Source: Ruminiclostridium sp.
GTDB taxonomy: Bacteria > Bacillota > Clostridia > Oscillospirales > Ruminococcaceae
Direction: 5' to 3'
NCBI GenBank assembly: GCA_024682455.1
Contig: JAIKZF010000079.1
Coordinates: forward strand, 1 to 34,029
Length of the DNA: 34,029 nt
Part shown: positions 8,710 through 31,525 of the stretch, piece by piece
How the letters are laid out: each line of letters begins with the position of its first letter
How positions within the stretch are numbered: the stretch's first letter is position 1
Program-made: the position numbers and the translations under genes
Notes under the pieces: model-generated
Database searches by the model: none
What the model saw: only the letters and a program-made list of their open reading frames with translations
Told to the model about the DNA's origin: nothing

Positions 8710-8745
8710 TTGGGGAAAACTTTTTTTCAAAAAAGTTTTCCCCAA
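8710..8745. repeat. Near-perfect 17-bp AT-rich hairpin
   Basis: TTGGGGAAAACTTTTTT (8710-8726) is followed by two bases and its complement (8729-8745). It lies between the divergent spoVG and murC genes, so it does not terminate either gene. It is probably a dispersed repeat or a small palindromic element; related GGAAAACTT sequence occurs in the stem-loops at 19431-19539. Confidence 0.6.
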
Positions 8746-15696: not shown

Positions 15697-17895
15697 ATGA
15701 CTAACGAACAATTAAGAGAGTACAAAACACAGCGCAGACGCAACACGCTGATAATGTTCGGACTGATATTTGCGGGTTTTCTGATAAACTACCTGCTCTT
15801 TACGCTTGTAAGCAGCCTCGGACTGCCGCTGTATCTTGACAATGTGGGCTCGGCGCTCGCAGCGGTGCTTGGCGGATATATGCCCGGCATACTTGCGGGC
15901 TTTATGACGAACATCGTCAATTCGCTGACCGAGCCGACGTCCATATACTACGGCATCATCACGGTCCTGATAGCTGCGGTCTCGGCGTTTTTTGAGAGCC
16001 GGGGCTGGCTTTCGTTAAAGAAGCCGCACATGGTGATCTCGTACATACTGATACTTACGCTGCTTGGCGGAGGCCTCGGTACGCTTTTGCCGTGGCTGCT
16101 GGACGGTCTTTCGTTCGAGAGCGAGTCGTTCGGCTCCGCGCTGCGTAACGCGGGTATCCGCAATCAGATGGCATCGCAGCTGTTCGGCAATCTGATAATG
16201 GACTTTCTTGACAAGTCGCTCACTACCGCTCTGGTGCTTATCGTGAAGGCTTTGATACCGAAGAACGTGAAGAAGATCCTCCGGTTCGACGGTATGCTTC
16301 AGGCTCCGCTGGACAAGGAGACCTCCGCTGAGGTAAAGGCTGTACGCTGCCGTGCCCTGTCCGTCCGCACGAAGATAATGACTCTCATCATCACAGCTCT
16401 TGTACTTATCGGTACAGCCGCTACAACGATAAGCTTCATACTGTTCAGCAATGTTACCGTCGAGCAGCAGAAGAAGCTCGTCAACGGAGTTGCCAACGTC
16501 GCCGCGAGCATCGTGGACGGCGACAGGATAGACGAGTTCATATCGCAGGGAAGAGCGGCTCCGGGCTACGCCGAGACGGAAAAACGCCTGTACGACCTGC
16601 GGGGCAGCGATGAAGATATACGCTTCATATTTGTATACAGGATAGAGCCGGACGGCTGCCACGTGGTGTTCGATCTTGATGATCCGCTGATACCAGCCGA
16701 TAAGCCCGGCGACATCGTGAACCTTGACACTTACGCCAAGCCCTATGAATTCGCTCTTATCGGGGGGGAAAAAATAGAGCCTATCGTTTCCGACGAGGAT
16801 AAGTTCGGCTGGCTGCTGACGGTTTATAATCCCATATATGACAGCAGCGGGAAAACCGCCGCATACGCCGTTGCCGAGGTCTCGATGAACGAGATCGGCG
16901 ATCATCAGCGCAACTTCATCACCGGAATGACCGCGCTGTATCTGCTGTTCTTTGTCGTGATATTCGCGATCGTCCTCTGGGTGGTCGAGCACCATATCGT
17001 TACCCCGACGAACTCAATGTCGATGGTCGTCAGCAAGTTCGCCTTCACCAACGACGACGAGCAGCTCAACGAGTGCGTTGATAAGGTAAAGGCTCTCGGC
17101 ATACGCACCGGAGACGAGATTGAGAACCTGTACAACGCCGTAGTCAAAATGGTATCCACCAGCGTCGCGCAGCTTGAGGATATCCGTCACAAGAGCGAGA
17201 CGATCACAAAGATGCAGAACGCGCTGATACTCGTCCTTGCGGACATAGTAGAGAGCCGTGACAAGAATACCGGCGACCATGTCCGCAAGACCGCCGCCTA
17301 CACGCGCATAATAATGAAGAAGATGAAGGAAAAGGGCTTCTACCCCGATCAGCTCACAGACAAGTTTATCGAGAGCGTCGGCAATATAGCTCCTATGCAC
17401 GATATAGGCAAGATAAAGGTGTCCGACATGATACTGAACAAGCCCGGACGACTTACCGACGAAGAGTTTGTGATCATGCAGACCCACACTACCTTCGGAC
17501 GCGATATCATTCAGGAGGTCATACAGCTCGTTCCGGAGTCTGACTATATGAATGAAGCCCTGAATGTTTCATACTACCACCACGAGAAATGGAACGGCAA
17601 GGGCTATCCCGAGGGCATAAAGGGCGAGGATATCCCGCTGTCCGCGCGGATAATGGCAGTCGCGGACGTGTTCGACGCTCTCGTTTCCAAGCGCAGCTAC
17701 AAGGAGCCGTTCTCATTCGAGCAGGCGTGCGATATTATCCGCGAGGGAGCGGGCTCGCACTTCGATCCGCTTGTTGCGGAGGCATTCCTTGACGCCGAGG
17801 ATGAGGCTCGCAAGATCGCCGAGTCCTTCGGTGATCTCACCGTCACCGCGTACGTTGAAGACACCCACGTTGACGACAGCGGCAAGGCACGCTGA
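15697..17895 (+). CDS. Membrane HD-GYP phosphodiesterase with ECF-S-like N-terminus
   Basis: Predicted to degrade cyclic di-GMP in response to an external signal. The 732-residue protein begins with five to six membrane segments (about 18-190) whose LPLYLDNVGSALAAVLGGYM and PGILAGFMTNIVNS stretches look like substrate-binding S components of ECF vitamin transporters. A further segment (about 226-252), an extracellular domain of about 150 residues (Cache-like, tentative) and a last segment (about 408-432) follow, then a linker helix and the HD-GYP domain: HDIGKIKVSDMILNKPGRL near 568 and GKGYPEGIKGEDIP near 635 with HHEKW before it. All HD-GYP metal-binding motifs are present. No HAMP motif is obvious. 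A second HD-GYP protein follows. Confidence 0.87.
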   Translation: MTNEQLREYKTQRRRNTLIMFGLIFAGFLINYLLFTLVSSLGLPLYLDNVGSALAAVLGGYMPGILAGFMTNIVNSLTEPTSIYYGIITVLIAAVSAFFESRGWLSLKKPHMVISYILILTLLGGGLGTLLPWLLDGLSFESESFGSALRNAGIRNQMASQLFGNLIMDFLDKSLTTALVLIVKALIPKNVKKILRFDGMLQAPLDKETSAEVKAVRCRALSVRTKIMTLIITALVLIGTAATTISFILFSNVTVEQQKKLVNGVANVAASIVDGDRIDEFISQGRAAPGYAETEKRLYDLRGSDEDIRFIFVYRIEPDGCHVVFDLDDPLIPADKPGDIVNLDTYAKPYEFALIGGEKIEPIVSDEDKFGWLLTVYNPIYDSSGKTAAYAVAEVSMNEIGDHQRNFITGMTALYLLFFVVIFAIVLWVVEHHIVTPTNSMSMVVSKFAFTNDDEQLNECVDKVKALGIRTGDEIENLYNAVVKMVSTSVAQLEDIRHKSETITKMQNALILVLADIVESRDKNTGDHVRKTAAYTRIIMKKMKEKGFYPDQLTDKFIESVGNIAPMHDIGKIKVSDMILNKPGRLTDEEFVIMQTHTTFGRDIIQEVIQLVPESDYMNEALNVSYYHHEKWNGKGYPEGIKGEDIPLSARIMAVADVFDALVSKRSYKEPFSFEQACDIIREGAGSHFDPLVAEAFLDAEDEARKIAESFGDLTVTAYVEDTHVDDSGKAR

Positions 17896-17954
17896 TAAAA
17901 TACTTTCCCTCGGAAAACGATTAACTATCTGTAATTTAGAAGCTGGTGTATCAG

Positions 17955-19418
17955 ATGAATGATTTAGTGATAAAAAAAGACAGCAGCGCTGTGCGCGCGC
18001 TGTCGTCACAGCTCTCGGAGAATTATATACCCGACGTGGCGCTGTGTCTCGACAAAGAGGCTTTCGGCTATGTCTACCGCTATATAATGAGAAGTGTCAT
18101 ACGCAACCGCCGTTCGATGTCCAAGATCATGCTGAATCTCACGAACGCGGAGGGCGCTGATGAGAGCAGGTGCGCGGAGCTCCGGGACAGCTTCGGCGAG
18201 CATATCGGTTCTTCGCTGAGAAAATCCGATATTTACATGAGAATTGATGAGAACAGCTATTTCATCATTCTTGTCGATATCCGCGAGGAATCGGTGGAAA
18301 AGGTATTGGATCATATCGTAAGAACATGGTACGAAAAAAATCCCAACGATATCATAGTGAACTGTGAGACCGAGTATGTCGGCAGCGGCGGAGAACACTC
18401 TCCCGGCAGCGGCCGCGTTAAGGTCGTGGTCGTTGACGACGATACCACGAACCTCAAAATGGCGGGACATATCCTCAGCAAGGGCGGCTTCTATGTTGCG
18501 GCTCTAAAGTCGGGGCAGGCTCTGCTGACTTATCTTGAGACCAATATTCCCGACCTTATACTGCTCGATATAAATATGCCCGGAATGGACGGCTTCGAGA
18601 CGATGAGGCACCTTAAGAGAATGGAGCGCGAGATCGCCGAGATACCGGTCATATTCCTGACCGGCGATGAGAGCTCAGACGCGGAGAGCACCTGCCTGTC
18701 GCTGGGAGCCATGGACTTCATCAAGAAGCCCTTCGTTCCCGATGTTCTCCTGCTTCGCGTAAGATCCACCATTGAGCTTATAACGCTGCAAAGATCGCTG
18801 AGCCGCGAGGTCGAGAAGAAGACACTGGCGAACCGCGAGCTGTTCCTGCACGTAGTAAAATCCCTCGCCGACGCTATCGACGCGAAGGATACATACACGA
18901 ACGGTCATTCCGGCAGAGTCGCCGAATACTCGCGCGAGATAGCCATGCGCGCGGGCTATACCGAGCAGGCGCAGGACAATATTTACATGATAGGTCTGCT
19001 GCACGACGTAGGCAAGATAGGCGTACCGGACGCTGTCATAAACAAGCCCGCCCGTCTTACAGACGAGGAGTTCGAGCTGATAAAGACCCACCCGGTCAAG
19101 GGAGCGCGCATACTGGAGAACATCAAGGAGATGCCCAAGCTCTCCGTGGGAGCACGCTGGCATCACGAGCGCTACGGCGGCGGAGGCTATCCCGACGGGC
19201 TCTCGGGCGAGGACATACCCGAGGAGGCGCGCATAATCGCCGTTGCGGACGCCTACGACGCTATGACCAGCCGCCGCAGCTACCGTGATGTACTGCCGCA
19301 GGAGAAGGTGCGCGCGGAGATAGAAAAAGGCCGCGGCACTCAGTTCGACCCGCGATTTGCCGATATAATGCTCAATATGATCGACGAGGATGTCGGGTAT
19401 GACATGAAAGAGAAATAA
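17955..19418 (+). CDS. Response regulator with degenerate GGDEF, REC and HD-GYP domains
   Basis: Soluble c-di-GMP phosphodiesterase under phosphorylation control. I chose ATG 17955, which has GGTG six bases upstream, over the in-frame GTG at 17946. Residues about 15-140 resemble a GGDEF domain (SSLRKSDIYMRIDENSYFII) in which the GGDEF signature has become IDENS, so it should not make c-di-GMP. REC spans about 155-280 with acidic pocket VVVDDD, phosphoacceptor Asp205 in LLDINMPGMDG and lysine in IKKPF. HD-GYP follows with NGHSGRVAEYS, HDVGKIGVPDAVINKPARL at 350 and GGGYPDGLSGEDIP at 411. No histidine kinase is encoded nearby; a partner must be elsewhere. It lies 59 bases after the membrane HD-GYP gene. 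Confidence 0.9.
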   Translation: MNDLVIKKDSSAVRALSSQLSENYIPDVALCLDKEAFGYVYRYIMRSVIRNRRSMSKIMLNLTNAEGADESRCAELRDSFGEHIGSSLRKSDIYMRIDENSYFIILVDIREESVEKVLDHIVRTWYEKNPNDIIVNCETEYVGSGGEHSPGSGRVKVVVVDDDTTNLKMAGHILSKGGFYVAALKSGQALLTYLETNIPDLILLDINMPGMDGFETMRHLKRMEREIAEIPVIFLTGDESSDAESTCLSLGAMDFIKKPFVPDVLLLRVRSTIELITLQRSLSREVEKKTLANRELFLHVVKSLADAIDAKDTYTNGHSGRVAEYSREIAMRAGYTEQAQDNIYMIGLLHDVGKIGVPDAVINKPARLTDEEFELIKTHPVKGARILENIKEMPKLSVGARWHHERYGGGGYPDGLSGEDIPEEARIIAVADAYDAMTSRRSYRDVLPQEKVRAEIEKGRGTQFDPRFADIMLNMIDEDVGYDMKEK

Positions 19419-19430
19419 AAGAAACATTTT

Positions 19431-19595
19431 GGAAGTTTTCTTTTGTATGCGCCGCCTCCTTGCGGCGCTTTGGAAAACTTCCTTATGACATTCGTGTCAT
19501 CTGGAAGTTTTTTTGTATGCGCCGCTTCGGAAAACTTCCTTATGACATCCATGTCATTGCGTGCCTTTCTTCGCAGCCGGCGAAGAAAGGCACGC
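19431..19595. repeat. Array of stem-loops, two repeat units plus a 16-bp hairpin
   Basis: Unit 1 (19431-19500) has an outer stem GGAAGTTTTC/GAAAACTTCC, an inner stem GCGCCGC/GCGGCGC and a trailing hairpin ATGACA-TTCG-TGTCAT. Unit 2 (19503-19557) repeats this but lacks the right inner arm; its trailing hairpin is ATGACA-TCCA-TGTCAT. A third, separate hairpin pairs GCGTGCCTTTCTTCGC (19559-19574) with its complement at 19580-19595, a perfect 16-bp stem. The array fills the gap between the response regulator and the MATE gene. No strong T-run follows the last stem, so a simple terminator role is doubtful. Confidence 0.75.
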
Positions 19596-26979: not shown

Positions 26980-27892
26980 TCGCTCCTTTGTTTGTTTTTT
27001 TCCGGAAAGTAATATTTATCTGCGCGGCTATTACCGCGATAAATACCAAAACGCACCCCGAGAGCTCCTTCACGCTGAGGTTCTCGTTCAGCAGCAGCCA
27101 GCCGGAGAGCGCCGCGAATACCGATTCAAGGCTCATCAGCAGGGTAGCTGCGGTAGGCTCGGTATAGCGCTGTCCGATTATCTGGAGTGTGTACGCCGCT
27201 CCGCAGGACATAACGCCTCCGTAGAGTATCGGCAGCCATGCCGCGGATATTTCTTTGACTGACGGCTTCTCGAAAACGAACATACATATCAGCATTATCG
27301 TTCCTGCGGTGAAGAACTGTATACAGGACATAAGCGGTCCGTTGACGTTTTTCGCGTTGAAGCGGTCTATCACCATGATGTGCGCCGCGAAGAAGAACGC
27401 GCACGCCAGCACCAGCAGATCTCCGACGGAAACGCTGAAGCCCTCGTTGATACAAAGCAGGTAAAACCCTGCGACCGCGATAAAGCAGCAGACCCACGCT
27501 TTCAGCGAGGTCCTGCGGTACAGTATGAAGCCGTATATCGGCACGATGATGATGTACAGCGCGGTTATAAATCCGGCTTTTCCGGCGGTCGTGTACTTTA
27601 TGCCGTATTGCTGGAGCATCCCAGCGACCGTGAATATAAGACCGCATATAACGCCGCCCGTAACGGTCGTTTTCAGCGGGGCGTTTTCCCGCTTTTCGCC
27701 GGGCTTGTCCGGCAGCAGCCGCAGGAGCGCTATCACCGGTATCAGCACGAAGCCGCCCAACAGCGTCCGGCAGGCGTTATATGTGAACGGTCCCACATAG
27801 TTCATGCCGTCGCTCTGCGCGACGAACGCAAGTCCCCAGATCGCAGCTGTCATCAGCAGCATTATATTGCCGCGGAGCCTGTGCCGCTTCAT
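26951..27892 (-). CDS. EamA/DMT family transporter
   Basis: The 313-residue membrane protein has ten predicted membrane segments in two homologous halves, beginning LLMTAAIWGLAFVAQSDGMN with the conserved WG near the first segment and ending with AALSGWLLLNENLSVKELSG, the usual EamA repeat end. Family members export amino acids and other metabolites. Its start codon overlaps the stop of the upstream ABC ATPase gene (TAATG), so production is tied to that importer. Pairing of an importer with an exporter suggests overflow control of an amino acid, which is inference only. Confidence 0.9.
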   Translation of the reverse strand: MKRHRLRGNIMLLMTAAIWGLAFVAQSDGMNYVGPFTYNACRTLLGGFVLIPVIALLRLLPDKPGEKRENAPLKTTVTGGVICGLIFTVAGMLQQYGIKYTTAGKAGFITALYIIIVPIYGFILYRRTSLKAWVCCFIAVAGFYLLCINEGFSVSVGDLLVLACAFFFAAHIMVIDRFNAKNVNGPLMSCIQFFTAGTIMLICMFVFEKPSVKEISAAWLPILYGGVMSCGAAYTLQIIGQRYTEPTAATLLMSLESVFAALSGWLLLNENLSVKELSGCVLVFIAVIAAQINITFRKKTNKGANDPNEKVSQ

Positions 27893-28617
27893 TACAGCAC
27901 CTTTGACAGGAATTCCCTGAGTCTCGGGCTCTTCGGATTTGCGAAAAACTCCGTCGGATCGTTCTCTTCCATAATGACCCCGTCCTCCATGAACAGGATC
28001 CTTGACGCGACCTCTCTCGCGAAGCCCATTTCATGAGTAACCACGATCATAGTCATTCCTTCGGAGGCGAGCTGCTTCATAAGCTCCAGCACCTCGCCGA
28101 CCATCTCGGGGTCGAGTGCAGAGGTAGGCTCGTCGAAGAGCATCACGTCCGGGTTCATGACGAGAGCCCTTGCTATCGCGATACGCTGCTTCTGGCCGCC
28201 CGAGAGCATATTCGGGTAGCTGTCCGCCTTATCGTAGAGCCCCACCTTGCGCAGGAGCTCCTCCGCTTTGGCGTTCGCCTCGTCCTTGGTCATGACCTTA
28301 AGCTTCACGGGAGCGAGCGTCAGGTTGCCGCGAATGGTCAGATGCGGGAACAGGTGAAAGTGCTGGAATACCATACCCATTTTTTCGCGCACCTTGTGCA
28401 GCTGCTTGTCCGAAGCCGTGGTAAGGTCGGTGCCCTCAAATATTATCGAGCCCGAGGTGGGCTTTTCGAGCCGGTTGAGACAGCGAAGGAATGTGCTCTT
28501 TCCCGAGCCCGAGGGTCCTATCACAACTACCTTTTCGTTTTTTTCTATTCTGGTGTCGATTCCCCTGAGTATCTCAAGGTCACCGAAGCTTTTTTTCAGT
28601 CCCTTAACCTCGATCAC
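27892..28617 (-). CDS. Polar amino-acid ABC transporter ATPase
   Basis: The 241-residue cytosolic subunit powers import with the permease and lipoprotein encoded upstream. Walker A is GPSGSGKST (34-42), the Q-loop is in [12 protein letters not shown], the signature is [15 protein letters not shown], Walker B is [15 protein letters not shown], followed by the switch histidine in VTHEMGFA. This is the GlnQ/HisP-type PAAT group. The gene overlaps the permease gene by 14 bases and the EamA gene by one. Substrate is not readable. Confidence 0.96.
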
Positions 28618-29296
28618 TCTTCTTGAGCCTCCTTTCGAGCTTTCCGACCAGAGCGCTGAGTCCGACGACGATGATAAGGTAGATGAGCGCTACGGCGATA
28701 AGCGGCAGGAACGCCTCATAAGTGACGCTGCGGATAATGTCTCCGCCCTTGGTGAGGTCTTCGAGCGCGATATATCCGGCAACCGAGGTCTCCTTCAGGA
28801 GAACTATGCATTCGTTTGCGAGAGCGGGAAGGATATTCTTGAACGCCTGGGGCAGGATTATGTAGAGCATGGTCTTGGGGTAGTTGAGACCGAGGCTCGC
28901 GCCCGCCTCGAACTGTCCGCCGTCCACCGACATTATGCCCGAACGTACGATCTCCGCTACATAAGCTCCCGAGTTTATGCCGAACGCGAGTATGCCGACA
29001 AGAGTCTTGTCTATCCTTACCGACGCGAAGATGACATAGTAAATAATGAGGAGCTGCACCATTACGGGCGTCCCTCTTATCACAGTCAGATATATTTTGG
29101 ATATGAAGTTTAGAATCCTGAGCTTGCCCGTCTTGTCGTGGGTAGCGCGGACTATCGCTACCAGAAAACCGATAACCATTCCCAGCATGACCGCGAAAAC
29201 AGTTATGATGAGCGTGGTTTTCAGTCCGTTGACGAGGTACATATACCTGTTGTCGTAAATAAAGGTATCGTACAGCTTCTGTACAAATTCGTCCAA
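28604..29296 (-). CDS. Polar amino-acid ABC transporter permease
   Basis: The 230-residue integral membrane subunit has about five membrane segments and the EAA-type loop [20 protein letters not shown] followed by [16 protein letters not shown], the coupling helix for the ATPase. The start is TTG at 29296, preceded by AGGGGGA eight bases away. The gene is separated from the binding-protein gene by 239 bases holding a stem-loop and two direct repeats. Confidence 0.94.
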
Positions 29297-29377: not shown

Positions 29378-29394
29378 TTTAATTACGTCTGCTG

Positions 29395-29525
29395 CACTAA
29401 AGTCACAGACGGATCGGGAGCGGCAGCCTGACGTAGAATCAGGAGTTATGTGTAAACTCTGAACTGCGTGGCAGATGACCCGAACACTACACTAAAGTAA
29501 CATACGGATTGGGAGCGGCAGCTTG
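29395..29525. repeat. Two 36-base direct repeats, 95-base period
   Basis: CACTAAAGTCACAGACGGAT.. (29395-29430) and CACTAAAGTAACATACGGAT.. (29490-29525) agree at 32 of 36 positions by eye, both continuing GGGAGCGGCAGC. They lie between the stop of the binding-protein gene and its permease. No coding function is visible. Confidence 0.7.
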
Positions 29526-29535
29526 CCGCCTGCCG

Positions 29536-30321
29536 CTACTTGGCTCTTACAACGATAGCCTGCATCGAGGTGGCATAGCCGTCGGTGAAGTTGACGTTTT
29601 TGAGTCTGTCCTCGGTAACGGACATACCCGCTACGCCTACGTCGGCCTTGCCGGAGGTAACGGCTGTGATTATGGAGTCGAATTCCATATTCTCGATAAC
29701 GAGCTCCATGCCGAGCTTGTCGCAGATAGCTTTCATCATATCAACGTCTATGCCGACTATATCGTTGTTCTCCATGCTCTCATAGGGCGGGAACTCGGCG
29801 TTGGTAGCCATAGTGAGCGTGCCTGTTCTTGTTATGGAGCTGTCGGGAACATAGGGTGCGTGATCGGCGTCGTCGCCTATCCAGTGCGAGATTATGCCGG
29901 AGAGAGTGCCGTCCGCCTTGATAGCTGCAAGAGCTTCGTTCAGCTTCTTGCCCAGCTCGTCGTCGCCTATCCTGTATGCTATGGAATATTCCTCGTTGTC
30001 GAAGGGCTCGTCGAGTATCTTAAGGTCGGAGTTCTTGCTCACGAACGCCTTTGCGGTCTCCATATCTATAATGACAGCGTCGTTTTTCGCCTGCTTGAGT
30101 GCTTGAATAGCGTCCGCGCCCTTGTTGTAGCCCTCGACCTTTGCGTCCTCGATATCGCCGGCGAGTATATAGCCGGTCGTACCGAGCTGTGTACCGATGA
30201 CCTTGCCCTTGAGGTCGTCAACGCTGTTTACTGTATTCGCGGGAACGCTGCTTCCTCCGCACGCAGACACGCTTAATACCGCAGCGGCGAGAAGTGCCGC
30301 CAGAAAACCTGTTTTTTTCAT
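29536..30321 (-). CDS. Circularly permuted amino-acid-binding lipoprotein (ABC importer)
   Basis: Extracellular solute receptor for the permease and ATPase downstream. The start is ATG 30321 (MKKTGFLAAL), a lipoprotein signal with lipobox VSAC and Cys21; the longer upstream frame is rejected. In usual family 3 binding proteins lobe 1 comes first. Here the mature chain starts with lobe 2: SVDDLKGKVIGTQLGTTG (33-50), DAVIIDMETAKAFV, YSIAYRIGDDELGKKLNEAL and ISHWIG (144-149). A linker (150-166) leads to lobe 1: GTLTMATNAEFPPYE (167-181), GIDVDMMKAICDKLG and VGVAGMSVTEDRLKNVNFTD (228-247), with the ligand-binding Arg239, ending IVVRAK exactly where lobe 2 would normally begin. Every element is present once, in swapped order. 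The divergent neighbour at 30683 has the normal order. Substrate is probably a polar amino acid. Confidence 0.93.
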   Translation of the reverse strand: MKKTGFLAALLAAAVLSVSACGGSSVPANTVNSVDDLKGKVIGTQLGTTGYILAGDIEDAKVEGYNKGADAIQALKQAKNDAVIIDMETAKAFVSKNSDLKILDEPFDNEEYSIAYRIGDDELGKKLNEALAAIKADGTLSGIISHWIGDDADHAPYVPDSSITRTGTLTMATNAEFPPYESMENNDIVGIDVDMMKAICDKLGMELVIENMEFDSIITAVTSGKADVGVAGMSVTEDRLKNVNFTDGYATSMQAIVVRAK

Positions 30322-30423
30322 GACTTTTGTTCCTTTCTTTTCTCCTTTTTCGGGGTCTTGTTCGCGTGGATATATATGGGCCTCGCCTGATGATCGGACG
30401 AGTCCTGTATCAAATACGAAAAC

Positions 30424-30452
30424 ATTATAACTCAAATCGCGCAAAAATGCAA
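30424..30452 (-). promoter_or_regulatory. Sigma-A promoter of the permuted binding-protein operon
   Basis: On the minus strand TTGCAT (30452-30447), a 17-base spacer and TATAAT (30429-30424) form a good promoter. It gives a leader of roughly 95 bases before ATG 30321, which contains a weak stem (CTCGTCC with GGCGAG) and AAAGGAAC as ribosome binding site. Confidence 0.75.
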
Positions 30453-30613
30453 TAGAATATCCGAAATTCTTATTGTACAATAATAAGATATTTATATCCG
30501 GGTTTTATAGCACATTTACCTATCATCACGGTAAACCGCTATAAAACATCACCAAAATAGGGACATAAACTTCGTATAATTTGTGTCTCCCTCCAAAAAT
30601 CCTTCATACGCTC

Positions 30614-30642
30614 TTTACAAAAAACAAGTTATATGTTATATT
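30614..30642 (+). promoter_or_regulatory. Sigma-A promoter of the second binding-protein gene
   Basis: TTTACA (30614-30619), a 17-base spacer and TATATT (30637-30642) lead to the gene at 30683, with AAAGAAAGGAACC as ribosome binding site. Another TATAAT at about 30575 has no matching -35 box. Confidence 0.7.
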
Positions 30643-30682
30643 ATTATGGCTGAAAAAGTAAAAAGAAAGGAACCGAAAAGTT

Positions 30683-31525
30683 ATGAAAAGATCGATAATA
30701 AGCAGAATAGCAGCCGGTTTAGCGGCGCTTGCGATAATGACTGCGGCGGGCTGCGGGAACGGCGGCGCCCAGACCACGACCGCGGCGAACACCGACGCGG
30801 CGCAGTCTGACACCTCTTTGCAGAAGGTGCTCGACGCAAAGCAGCTCGTACTCGGGCTCGACGCGAGCTTCCCGCCCATGGGCTTCACGAACGAGGCTAA
30901 CGAGATCGTGGGCTTCGATATCGACGTTGCTCAGGCGGTATGCGATAAAATGGGCATCGCCCTTGTAAAGCAGCCTATCGTGTGGGACAACAAGGAGGAG
31001 GACCTCAATGTCGGCAAGATCGACTGCATCTGGAACGGTATGTCCGTCAACGACGCGCGCCGTCAGACGATGAACCTGTCCGATCCGTACATGAACAACG
31101 AGATGATATTCGTGGTTCCGAAGGACAGCGGCATAAAGACTATGGACGACCTTAAGGGCAGGACCGTCGGCGTTCAGTCGGGCTCGTCCGCGGAGGAGAT
31201 ACTTGTGGCTTCCGAGATCTACAAGGACATCAAGGTAACGGCTCTTGAGGATAATGTAACGCTCCTCAGCCAGATGGAGCTCGGCTTCTCCGATTCCGTG
31301 TTCCTCGATTCCATAGTCGCGAACTACTTCATCACCGAGAACAACAAGGATTACGTGATACTTCCCGGCAACCTTGAAGCCGAGGAATACGCGATAGGTT
31401 TCAGAAAGAACGATCAGGCGCTCCGTGACGAGGTCCAGAAGGTGCTCAGCGAGCTTAAGGCAGAGGGCAAGCTTGCGGAGATATCCAAAAAGTGGTTCGG
31501 AAGCGACGTCACTACGGTAAAATAA
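30683..31525 (+). CDS. Amino-acid-binding lipoprotein, conventional order
   Basis: The 280-residue lipoprotein has a signal peptide ending AAGC (lipobox Cys at 24) and a Thr/Ala-rich linker. Lobe 1 comes first: LVLGLDASFPPMGFTNEANE, VGFDIDVAQAVCDKMG and NGMSVNDARRQTMNLSDPY with the ligand-binding Arg. Lobe 2 follows with TMDDLKGRTVGVQSGSSAEE, and the chain ends LSELKAEGKLAEISKKWFGS. This is the usual solute-binding protein family 3 layout for polar amino acids. It is followed by a strong terminator, and the permease and ATPase genes have their own promoter, so the receptor can be made in excess. Confidence 0.95.
   Translation: MKRSIISRIAAGLAALAIMTAAGCGNGGAQTTTAANTDAAQSDTSLQKVLDAKQLVLGLDASFPPMGFTNEANEIVGFDIDVAQAVCDKMGIALVKQPIVWDNKEEDLNVGKIDCIWNGMSVNDARRQTMNLSDPYMNNEMIFVVPKDSGIKTMDDLKGRTVGVQSGSSAEEILVASEIYKDIKVTALEDNVTLLSQMELGFSDSVFLDSIVANYFITENNKDYVILPGNLEAEEYAIGFRKNDQALRDEVQKVLSELKAEGKLAEISKKWFGSDVTTVK

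Follow-up and report, generated by a model that had tools for sequence, protein, structure and literature searches.

The lipoprotein encoded at 29536–30321 on the minus strand of the stretch of DNA analysed here (34,029 nucleotides; hereafter, the window) is a natural circular permutant of the SBP_bac_3 family, in which the three segments of the standard chain, N-2-C, follow one another in the order 2-C-N. The observation that led to this analysis, a natural circular permutation of an ABC amino-acid-binding protein, is confirmed by the order of the segments, the recurrence of the same order in many genome records and the operon context, and its open reading frame, coordinates and strand were found to be correct when frame and translation were checked. 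The permuted chain very probably operates as a lipid-anchored amino-acid substrate-binding protein (SBP) that feeds the permease and the ATPase encoded downstream, and is one of at least three types of cut in this subfamily of Clostridia, most likely generated by repeated duplication and trimming. The features of the gene and its neighbourhood, with the basis for each, are as follows.

27892–28617, minus strand: ABC ATPase (GlnQ-like), after the permease (open reading frame, Pfam/NCBIfam)
28604–29296, minus strand: amino-acid ABC permease (GlnP-like), after the SBP gene (open reading frame, Pfam/NCBIfam)
29536–30321, minus strand: circularly permuted SBP_bac_3 lipoprotein gene of cut type A, 261 amino acids, coordinates including the stop codon
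29539–29562, minus strand: start of lobe 2, QAIVVRAK, residues 254–261, the new C-terminus (GlnH mapping; presumed strand)
29563–29577, minus strand: hinge 1, residues 249–253 (GlnBP 85–89), uncut (GlnH mapping and the available text of PMC7400645)
29578–29829, minus strand: lobe 1, former N-terminal part, residues 165–248, with R239 (GlnBP R75) (GlnH mapping)
29830–29868, minus strand: new linker from the old C-terminus to the old N-terminus, residues 152–164 (GlnH mapping)
29869–29985, minus strand: lobe 1, former C-terminal part, residues 113–151 (GlnH mapping)
29986–30000, minus strand: hinge 2, residues 108–112 (GlnBP 181–185), uncut (GlnH mapping and the available text of PMC7400645)
30001–30234, minus strand: body of lobe 2, residues 30–107, now the start of the chain (GlnH mapping and hinge limits in the available text of PMC7400645)
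30259–30321, minus strand: signal peptide (residues 1–20) and lipobox cysteine (residue 21), read from the sequence
30683–31525, plus strand: divergent standard-order SBP, a distant paralogue (open reading frame, sequence comparison, segment order)

The Pfam model SBP_bac_3 (PF00497) matches the window protein with 117 bits against a cut-off of 26.4, in two stretches, the better of which places profile positions 1–92 on residues 169–260, and the six best of the 13 matching NCBIfam models also do so in two stretches. Profile annotation shows only two partial matches and gives little warning of the rearrangement. These Pfam and NCBIfam matches are to amino-acid-binding and related families, with no sugar-binding model among them. 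A sequence search of the PDB matched 94 chains, and among the 60 listed the 18 best do so in two stretches; three of the alignments place the N-terminal part of the PDB chain on query residues 163–259 and its later part on residues 30–150. Judged by their best stretches, no single permuted domain occurs among the best 60 of the 94 matching chains; the one collinear match among them is 6h30, which we take to be a tandem of two standard-order domains. Moreover, the native chain gives two separate local alignments with GlnH of Escherichia coli K-12 (E 3e-19 and 3e-13), and rotation of the chain before alignment, as had been proposed, joins them into a single one with 32% identity over 218 residues (E 2.6e-36). 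Segment profiles defined by window residues 165–261 (N), 30–98 (2) and 99–151 (C) read 2-C-N in the window protein and N-2-C in GlnH; the complete set was absent from 200 shuffles, two of which had a stray match to segment 2 (E 0.0003 and 0.004). Since the order is 2-C-N and not N-2-C, the protein is a permuted homologue of SBP_bac_3 and not a standard member.

In GlnBP, the large domain comprises residues 5–84 and 186–224, the small domain residues 90–180, and the hinge residues 85–89 and 181–185 (PMC7400645, available text). Mapped through GlnH, both ends of the window chain fall inside lobe 2, and its start lies before SVDDLKGK. Thus, the cut does not lie at the inter-lobe hinge, where the original prediction had placed it, but eight residues beyond hinge 1, so that both crossover strands are whole and covalent. 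The corrected lobes are approximately residues 30–107 with 254–261 (lobe 2) and 113–248 (lobe 1); the earlier division into 33–149 and 167–261 misassigned residues 113–149, which belong to lobe 1, and 254–261, which belong to lobe 2, and holds for the remainder. The joining linker proposed then does exist, with a length of 13 residues (152–164) by the present boundaries compared with the 17 (150–166) first given. The names of strands and helices used here rest on the GlnH alignment. In the same alignment, GlnBP R75 and D157, which we take to be residues with a role in ligand binding, correspond to R239 and D86, and both columns are invariant across the 19 permuted rows of the alignment used as a profile for genome scans (A1), whose rows were trimmed to begin at the lipobox cysteine and which is, therefore, no test of that cysteine. 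GlnBP K115, H156 and D10 align with Q45, I85 and N174, respectively.

On this anatomy, the chain starts in lobe 2 and crosses hinge 2 to complete what was the C-terminal portion of lobe 1; the new linker then leads to the original N-terminal portion of that lobe, from which the chain passes through hinge 1 and would add the first strand to lobe 2. With both hinge strands uncut, a normal Venus-flytrap monomer could form and work as usual, and the main physical change would be that the lipid anchor sits on lobe 2, near the hinge, instead of on lobe 1. The ligand would probably be a polar or basic amino acid, passed to the permease and ATPase encoded downstream.

Both of these genes follow the SBP gene in the same direction, in agreement with the operon described in the original prediction, which had also credited the operon with a promoter of its own; that element finds no support, since no sigma70-like site was detected on the minus strand in 30322–30682, upstream of the permuted SBP gene. 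The permease matches TIGR01726 (HEQRo-type) with 75.2 bits (cut-off 42.2), and its best NCBIfam match is the GlnP model, below the equivalog cut-off, as is that of the ATPase to the GlnQ model (316.5 bits, cut-off 379). The divergent homologue 361 bases away has the standard order, as had been noted; with identities of just 30% and 36% to the two portions of the window protein, it is not the close ancestor of the permuted SBP. The intergenic DNA flanking the permuted gene contains no leftover piece of a lobe. Between the SBP stop codon and the permease lies a 42-bp direct repeat (29392–29433 and 29487–29528, 86% identical), and a pattern derived from it, with up to three mismatches allowed, occurs in the window's genome only at those two sites. 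Elsewhere in the window, self-comparison revealed inverted repeats of 36–43 bases with 88–94% matching at 153–195, 8710–8745 and 19559–19595, possibly terminator hairpins. Two adjacent genes (15697–17895 and 17946–19418) encode products that, read by eye, resemble HD-GYP-type signalling proteins, the former with membrane and sensor parts and the latter with a response-regulator part.

The permuted order is not confined to the window. A contig scan of other genome records confirmed 19 loci, 17 of which (L004–L020) are permuted and 54–92% identical to the window protein, and two (L021 and L022) have the standard order with 56–58% identity per segment. The search of clostridial genomes that had been suggested thus bore out the surmise of a widespread family, and gut Firmicutes proteins with the same start and end presumably occur in databases with the annotation of an ordinary substrate-binding protein. 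With the A1 profile, matches were obtained in 76 of the 394 genomes sampled from the order (E ≤ 1e-40), in 34 of the 391 from the class (1e-45) and in 4 of the 398 from the phylum (1e-45). A permuted SBP, either single or fused to a permease, occurs in at least 42, 32 and 4 of these genomes, respectively, counts that include the window's genome in each of these overlapping samples and exclude tandem arrays and unclassified rows; one of those in the phylum sample, L108, comes from outside the class. The standard order is commoner than the permuted one in the order, as a scan with a standard-order profile (A5) indicates: among 197 genomes from the order, 137 gave a match at 1e-40, partial matches to permuted proteins included, and a match spanning from A5 position 20 or earlier to position 250 or later was found in roughly 100 or more of the 197, counted by hand among the matches listed.

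Among 148 loci plus the window, open reading frames with at least two segments read 2CN in 87 cases, N2C in 41, CN2 in 19 and 2N in two, and tandem orders were (2CN)2 in five cases, (N2C)2 in two, and (N2C)3, (2CN)3 and (2CN)4 in one each; the loci were found with A-type queries and, therefore, these counts are not frequencies. After seven duplicate or own-genome loci were dropped, eight 2CN loci were reassigned to type C from their chain ends and L147 and L148, without a significant C segment, were left out of type A, the final set consisted of 72 A, 19 B, 8 C and 36 standard proteins and 10 tandem SBP–permease fusions; the C segment is weak in L127 (2e-3) and L121 (1e-5). Type A has the cut of the window protein. 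Type B (CN2, e.g., L100) begins right before LKILD, the final stretch of lobe 2, and its chain ends with AKAYVEANN, which lies just ahead of that stretch, and type C (L119–L125 and L069) is cut one presumed helix after A, so that this helix stays C-terminal. All three cuts are in lobe 2, and the hinge stretches are whole in every type. The two further cut sites and the tandem fusions had not been noted in the original prediction. A loose lipobox motif precedes the first segment in 69/72 A, 19/19 B, 7/8 C and 36/36 standard proteins, and the gap between the C and N profiles measures 14–25 residues across A, B and C, which fits closure within one chain. Types A and B also coexist in G271, a one-contig genome listed as 100% complete, which carries the B-type L110, with a permease four bases further on, and a divergent A-type protein, L126, without a permease in the 1 kb scanned.

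The tandem fusions occur in both registers, (2CN)n-permease and (N2C)n-permease. Seven of them (L018:4185-6410, L033, L034, L036, L038, L040 and L048) carry two to four permuted units ahead of a GlnP-like permease in a single chain, and L075, L080 and L081 carry two or three standard-order units ahead of a permease. An interpretation of the full-coverage matches of about 1000 residues as sensor proteins was rejected for those inspected, as all ten tandem frames match a permease. The two permuted units of L018 group as sisters in the careful tree described below, and the sequence where they join resembles the hinge region of a standard protein, so this array holds permuted and standard units simultaneously.

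A permease on the same strand, fused to the SBP domain or within 1.5 kb of it, accompanies 65/72 A, 18/19 B, 8/8 C and 29/36 standard proteins, with distances taken from alignment ends so that overlapping frames are included. Three A-type loci with about 5 kb of sequence downstream (L014, L015 and L019; 54–63% identical to the window protein) lack any matching permease over the first 1.5 kb and any such ATPase over the first 2.5 kb, and possibly encode orphan binding proteins. No permease was found in the 1–1.5 kb available downstream of four other A-type loci (L043, L126, L127 and L128). A separate operon lineage, with types B and C as near relatives, is made up of L114–L117, L119–L125, L037 and L049, the 13 permeases of which form a well-supported clade of their own in a quick tree of 88 permeases.

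Three distinct cut sites imply at least three events. Chain order, not the tree, was used to set the groups whose history was followed. The order label changes 16 times in a quick tree of 159 rows and 12 times in a careful tree of 107 rows (the 159 after removal of 26 rows that were long, tandem or distant, and subsequent thinning within labels at 88% identity), whose bootstrap had not settled; the well-supported branches of the latter alone force at least three for A, four for B, two for C and five for the standard order. Constraining each group to one clade was rejected for B (p-AU 1.3e-5) and C (p-AU 0.0039), and, in a 45-row tree that includes the mosaic L059, for A (p-AU 0.0035) and the standard order (4.9e-5). 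When the segments of 38 rows were analysed apart, one clade was rejected for B by N (0.012) and by 2+C (0.0013), and for C by 2+C (0.0002), whereas the N segment alone did not reject it (0.07); the 45- and 38-row sets were picked after the larger tree had been viewed. These comparisons suggest that B arose more than once, and C probably did so too. L059:1501-2349 was discarded as a clean standard/permuted sister pair that would prove a switch of order, since it is a mosaic, with an N segment 84% identical to that of the standard L021 and a segment 2 up to 83% identical to A-type sequences; its permease groups with those of the standard L021 and L130 in the quick tree of 88 permeases. The pattern suggests recombination between SBP genes, and such exchange between paralogues blurs the counts made on trees. 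For each segment of the window protein, the six best matches are all A-type, with L004, L005, L006, L007 and L013 always included.

The permuted orders most likely arose repeatedly, through in-frame duplication of the gene in tandem or recombination with a second SBP gene, after which both ends were trimmed. The tandem arrays are plausible intermediates: the interior of an array reads equally well as standard or as permuted units, so that trimming could release any register, and loss of one end or the other would yield either. However, the intergenic DNA flanking the gene in the window bears no trace of such a process. A tentative extension, which we consider possible, is that the register is fluid, with the standard, A, B and C forms interconverting through permease-fused arrays, where lobes of neighbouring units may pair across their boundaries. 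Recombination of neighbouring or paralogous SBP genes, rather than duplication, as the maker of the order would turn some of the origins drawn from trees into mosaics; L059, with its standard-like N segment and A-like segment 2, and the failure of the N segment alone to reject a single C clade fit this alternative, but the rejection of a single B clade by each part separately and the recurrence of five loci among the A-type best matches of all three window segments make it rather unlikely.

The permuted relatives named in the confirming scan all come from metagenome-assembled or uncultured sources and the window's genome is in 109 contigs, but the same order is found in many separate assemblies, with both A and B types in the one-contig G271, and thus an assembly error is rejected; open frames and the conservation of the lipobox and of the ligand-residue equivalents argue against decay, so that an artefact of either kind is practically out of the question. 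As for the state of the protein, an open chain with exchange of lobes between two molecules could be favoured by a short or strained linker, and 6svf, a close PDB match to the window SBP, is presumably the Thermotoga arginine-binding protein, which swaps its C-terminal helix. Nevertheless, a domain-swapped dimer of this kind is improbable, since the 14–25-residue gap in A, B and C and the continuity of both hinge strands do not force exchange, and the permuted Tp0684 is reported to be monomeric (PMC4990184, available text). Finally, the protein, or part of the family, might act as a sensor, scavenger or decoy instead of as the binding subunit of the neighbouring transporter. Short flanks fail to explain the solitary L014, L015 and L019, which gives this reading more weight, but it is very improbable given that a permease and an ATPase follow the window gene in the same direction, as in most relatives, and that some relatives are fused to a permease.

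The window protein shares with GlnH, ArtJ, TmArgBP and the ancestral AncQR every segment, both hinges, the equivalents of the ligand residues and the operon partners, and differs in that those proteins are N-2-C, whereas it is 2-C-N and its relatives C-N-2 or cut later. GlnPQ-type fusions (6h30) similarly join two SBP domains to a permease in one chain; their units are in the standard order, whereas the arrays of Clostridia contain two to three standard units or two to four in the permuted register. Natural permutation of binding proteins is already established for Tp0684 and for OpuAC/ProX, and the entries 2B4L and 1R9L are, going by reference titles, presumably OpuAC and ProX. According to the available text of PMC2395249, the CPSARST method groups glycine-betaine-binding and molybdate-binding proteins and CysB into a permutation family, a case of natural circular permutation within type II-like binding folds as well, although among distant proteins with less than 24% identity related by structure; here, permuted and standard proteins are 56–58% identical per segment, and several cuts occur within one subfamily. 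Tp0684 (MglB-2), for which the class 'Type Ic / Cluster Bc' of sugar-binding lipoproteins was proposed, is likewise an ABC binding protein that carries both a lipid anchor and a natural permutation, and its relatives occur in treponemes and Gram-positive bacteria, but it has a Type I fold, glucose as its ligand and a permutation that adds a fourth hinge crossover (PMC4990184, available text); the window SBP, in contrast, matches no type I sugar-binding family in Pfam or NCBIfam. No report of permutation within SBP_bac_3 was found in the accessible portions of the open-access literature, including PMC4990184, PMC7400645, PMC13229503, PMC2912341, PMC2395249, PMC2861598, PMC9022810 and PMC12667903, and the case described here is, within that literature, apparently new.

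In the literature accessible, earlier natural permutations of binding proteins concern distant proteins or a single type of cut. The 56–58% identity per segment, the same kind of operon, the three cuts and the tandem arrays make both the origin and the cost of permutation directly testable in this family. Moreover, binding proteins are common scaffolds for biosensors (PMC11213343, available text), and nature here supplies such scaffolds with new termini. In related bacteria, the same protein is opened at three points, and the family appears to have undergone several rounds of circular joining and renewed cutting in the course of its evolution.
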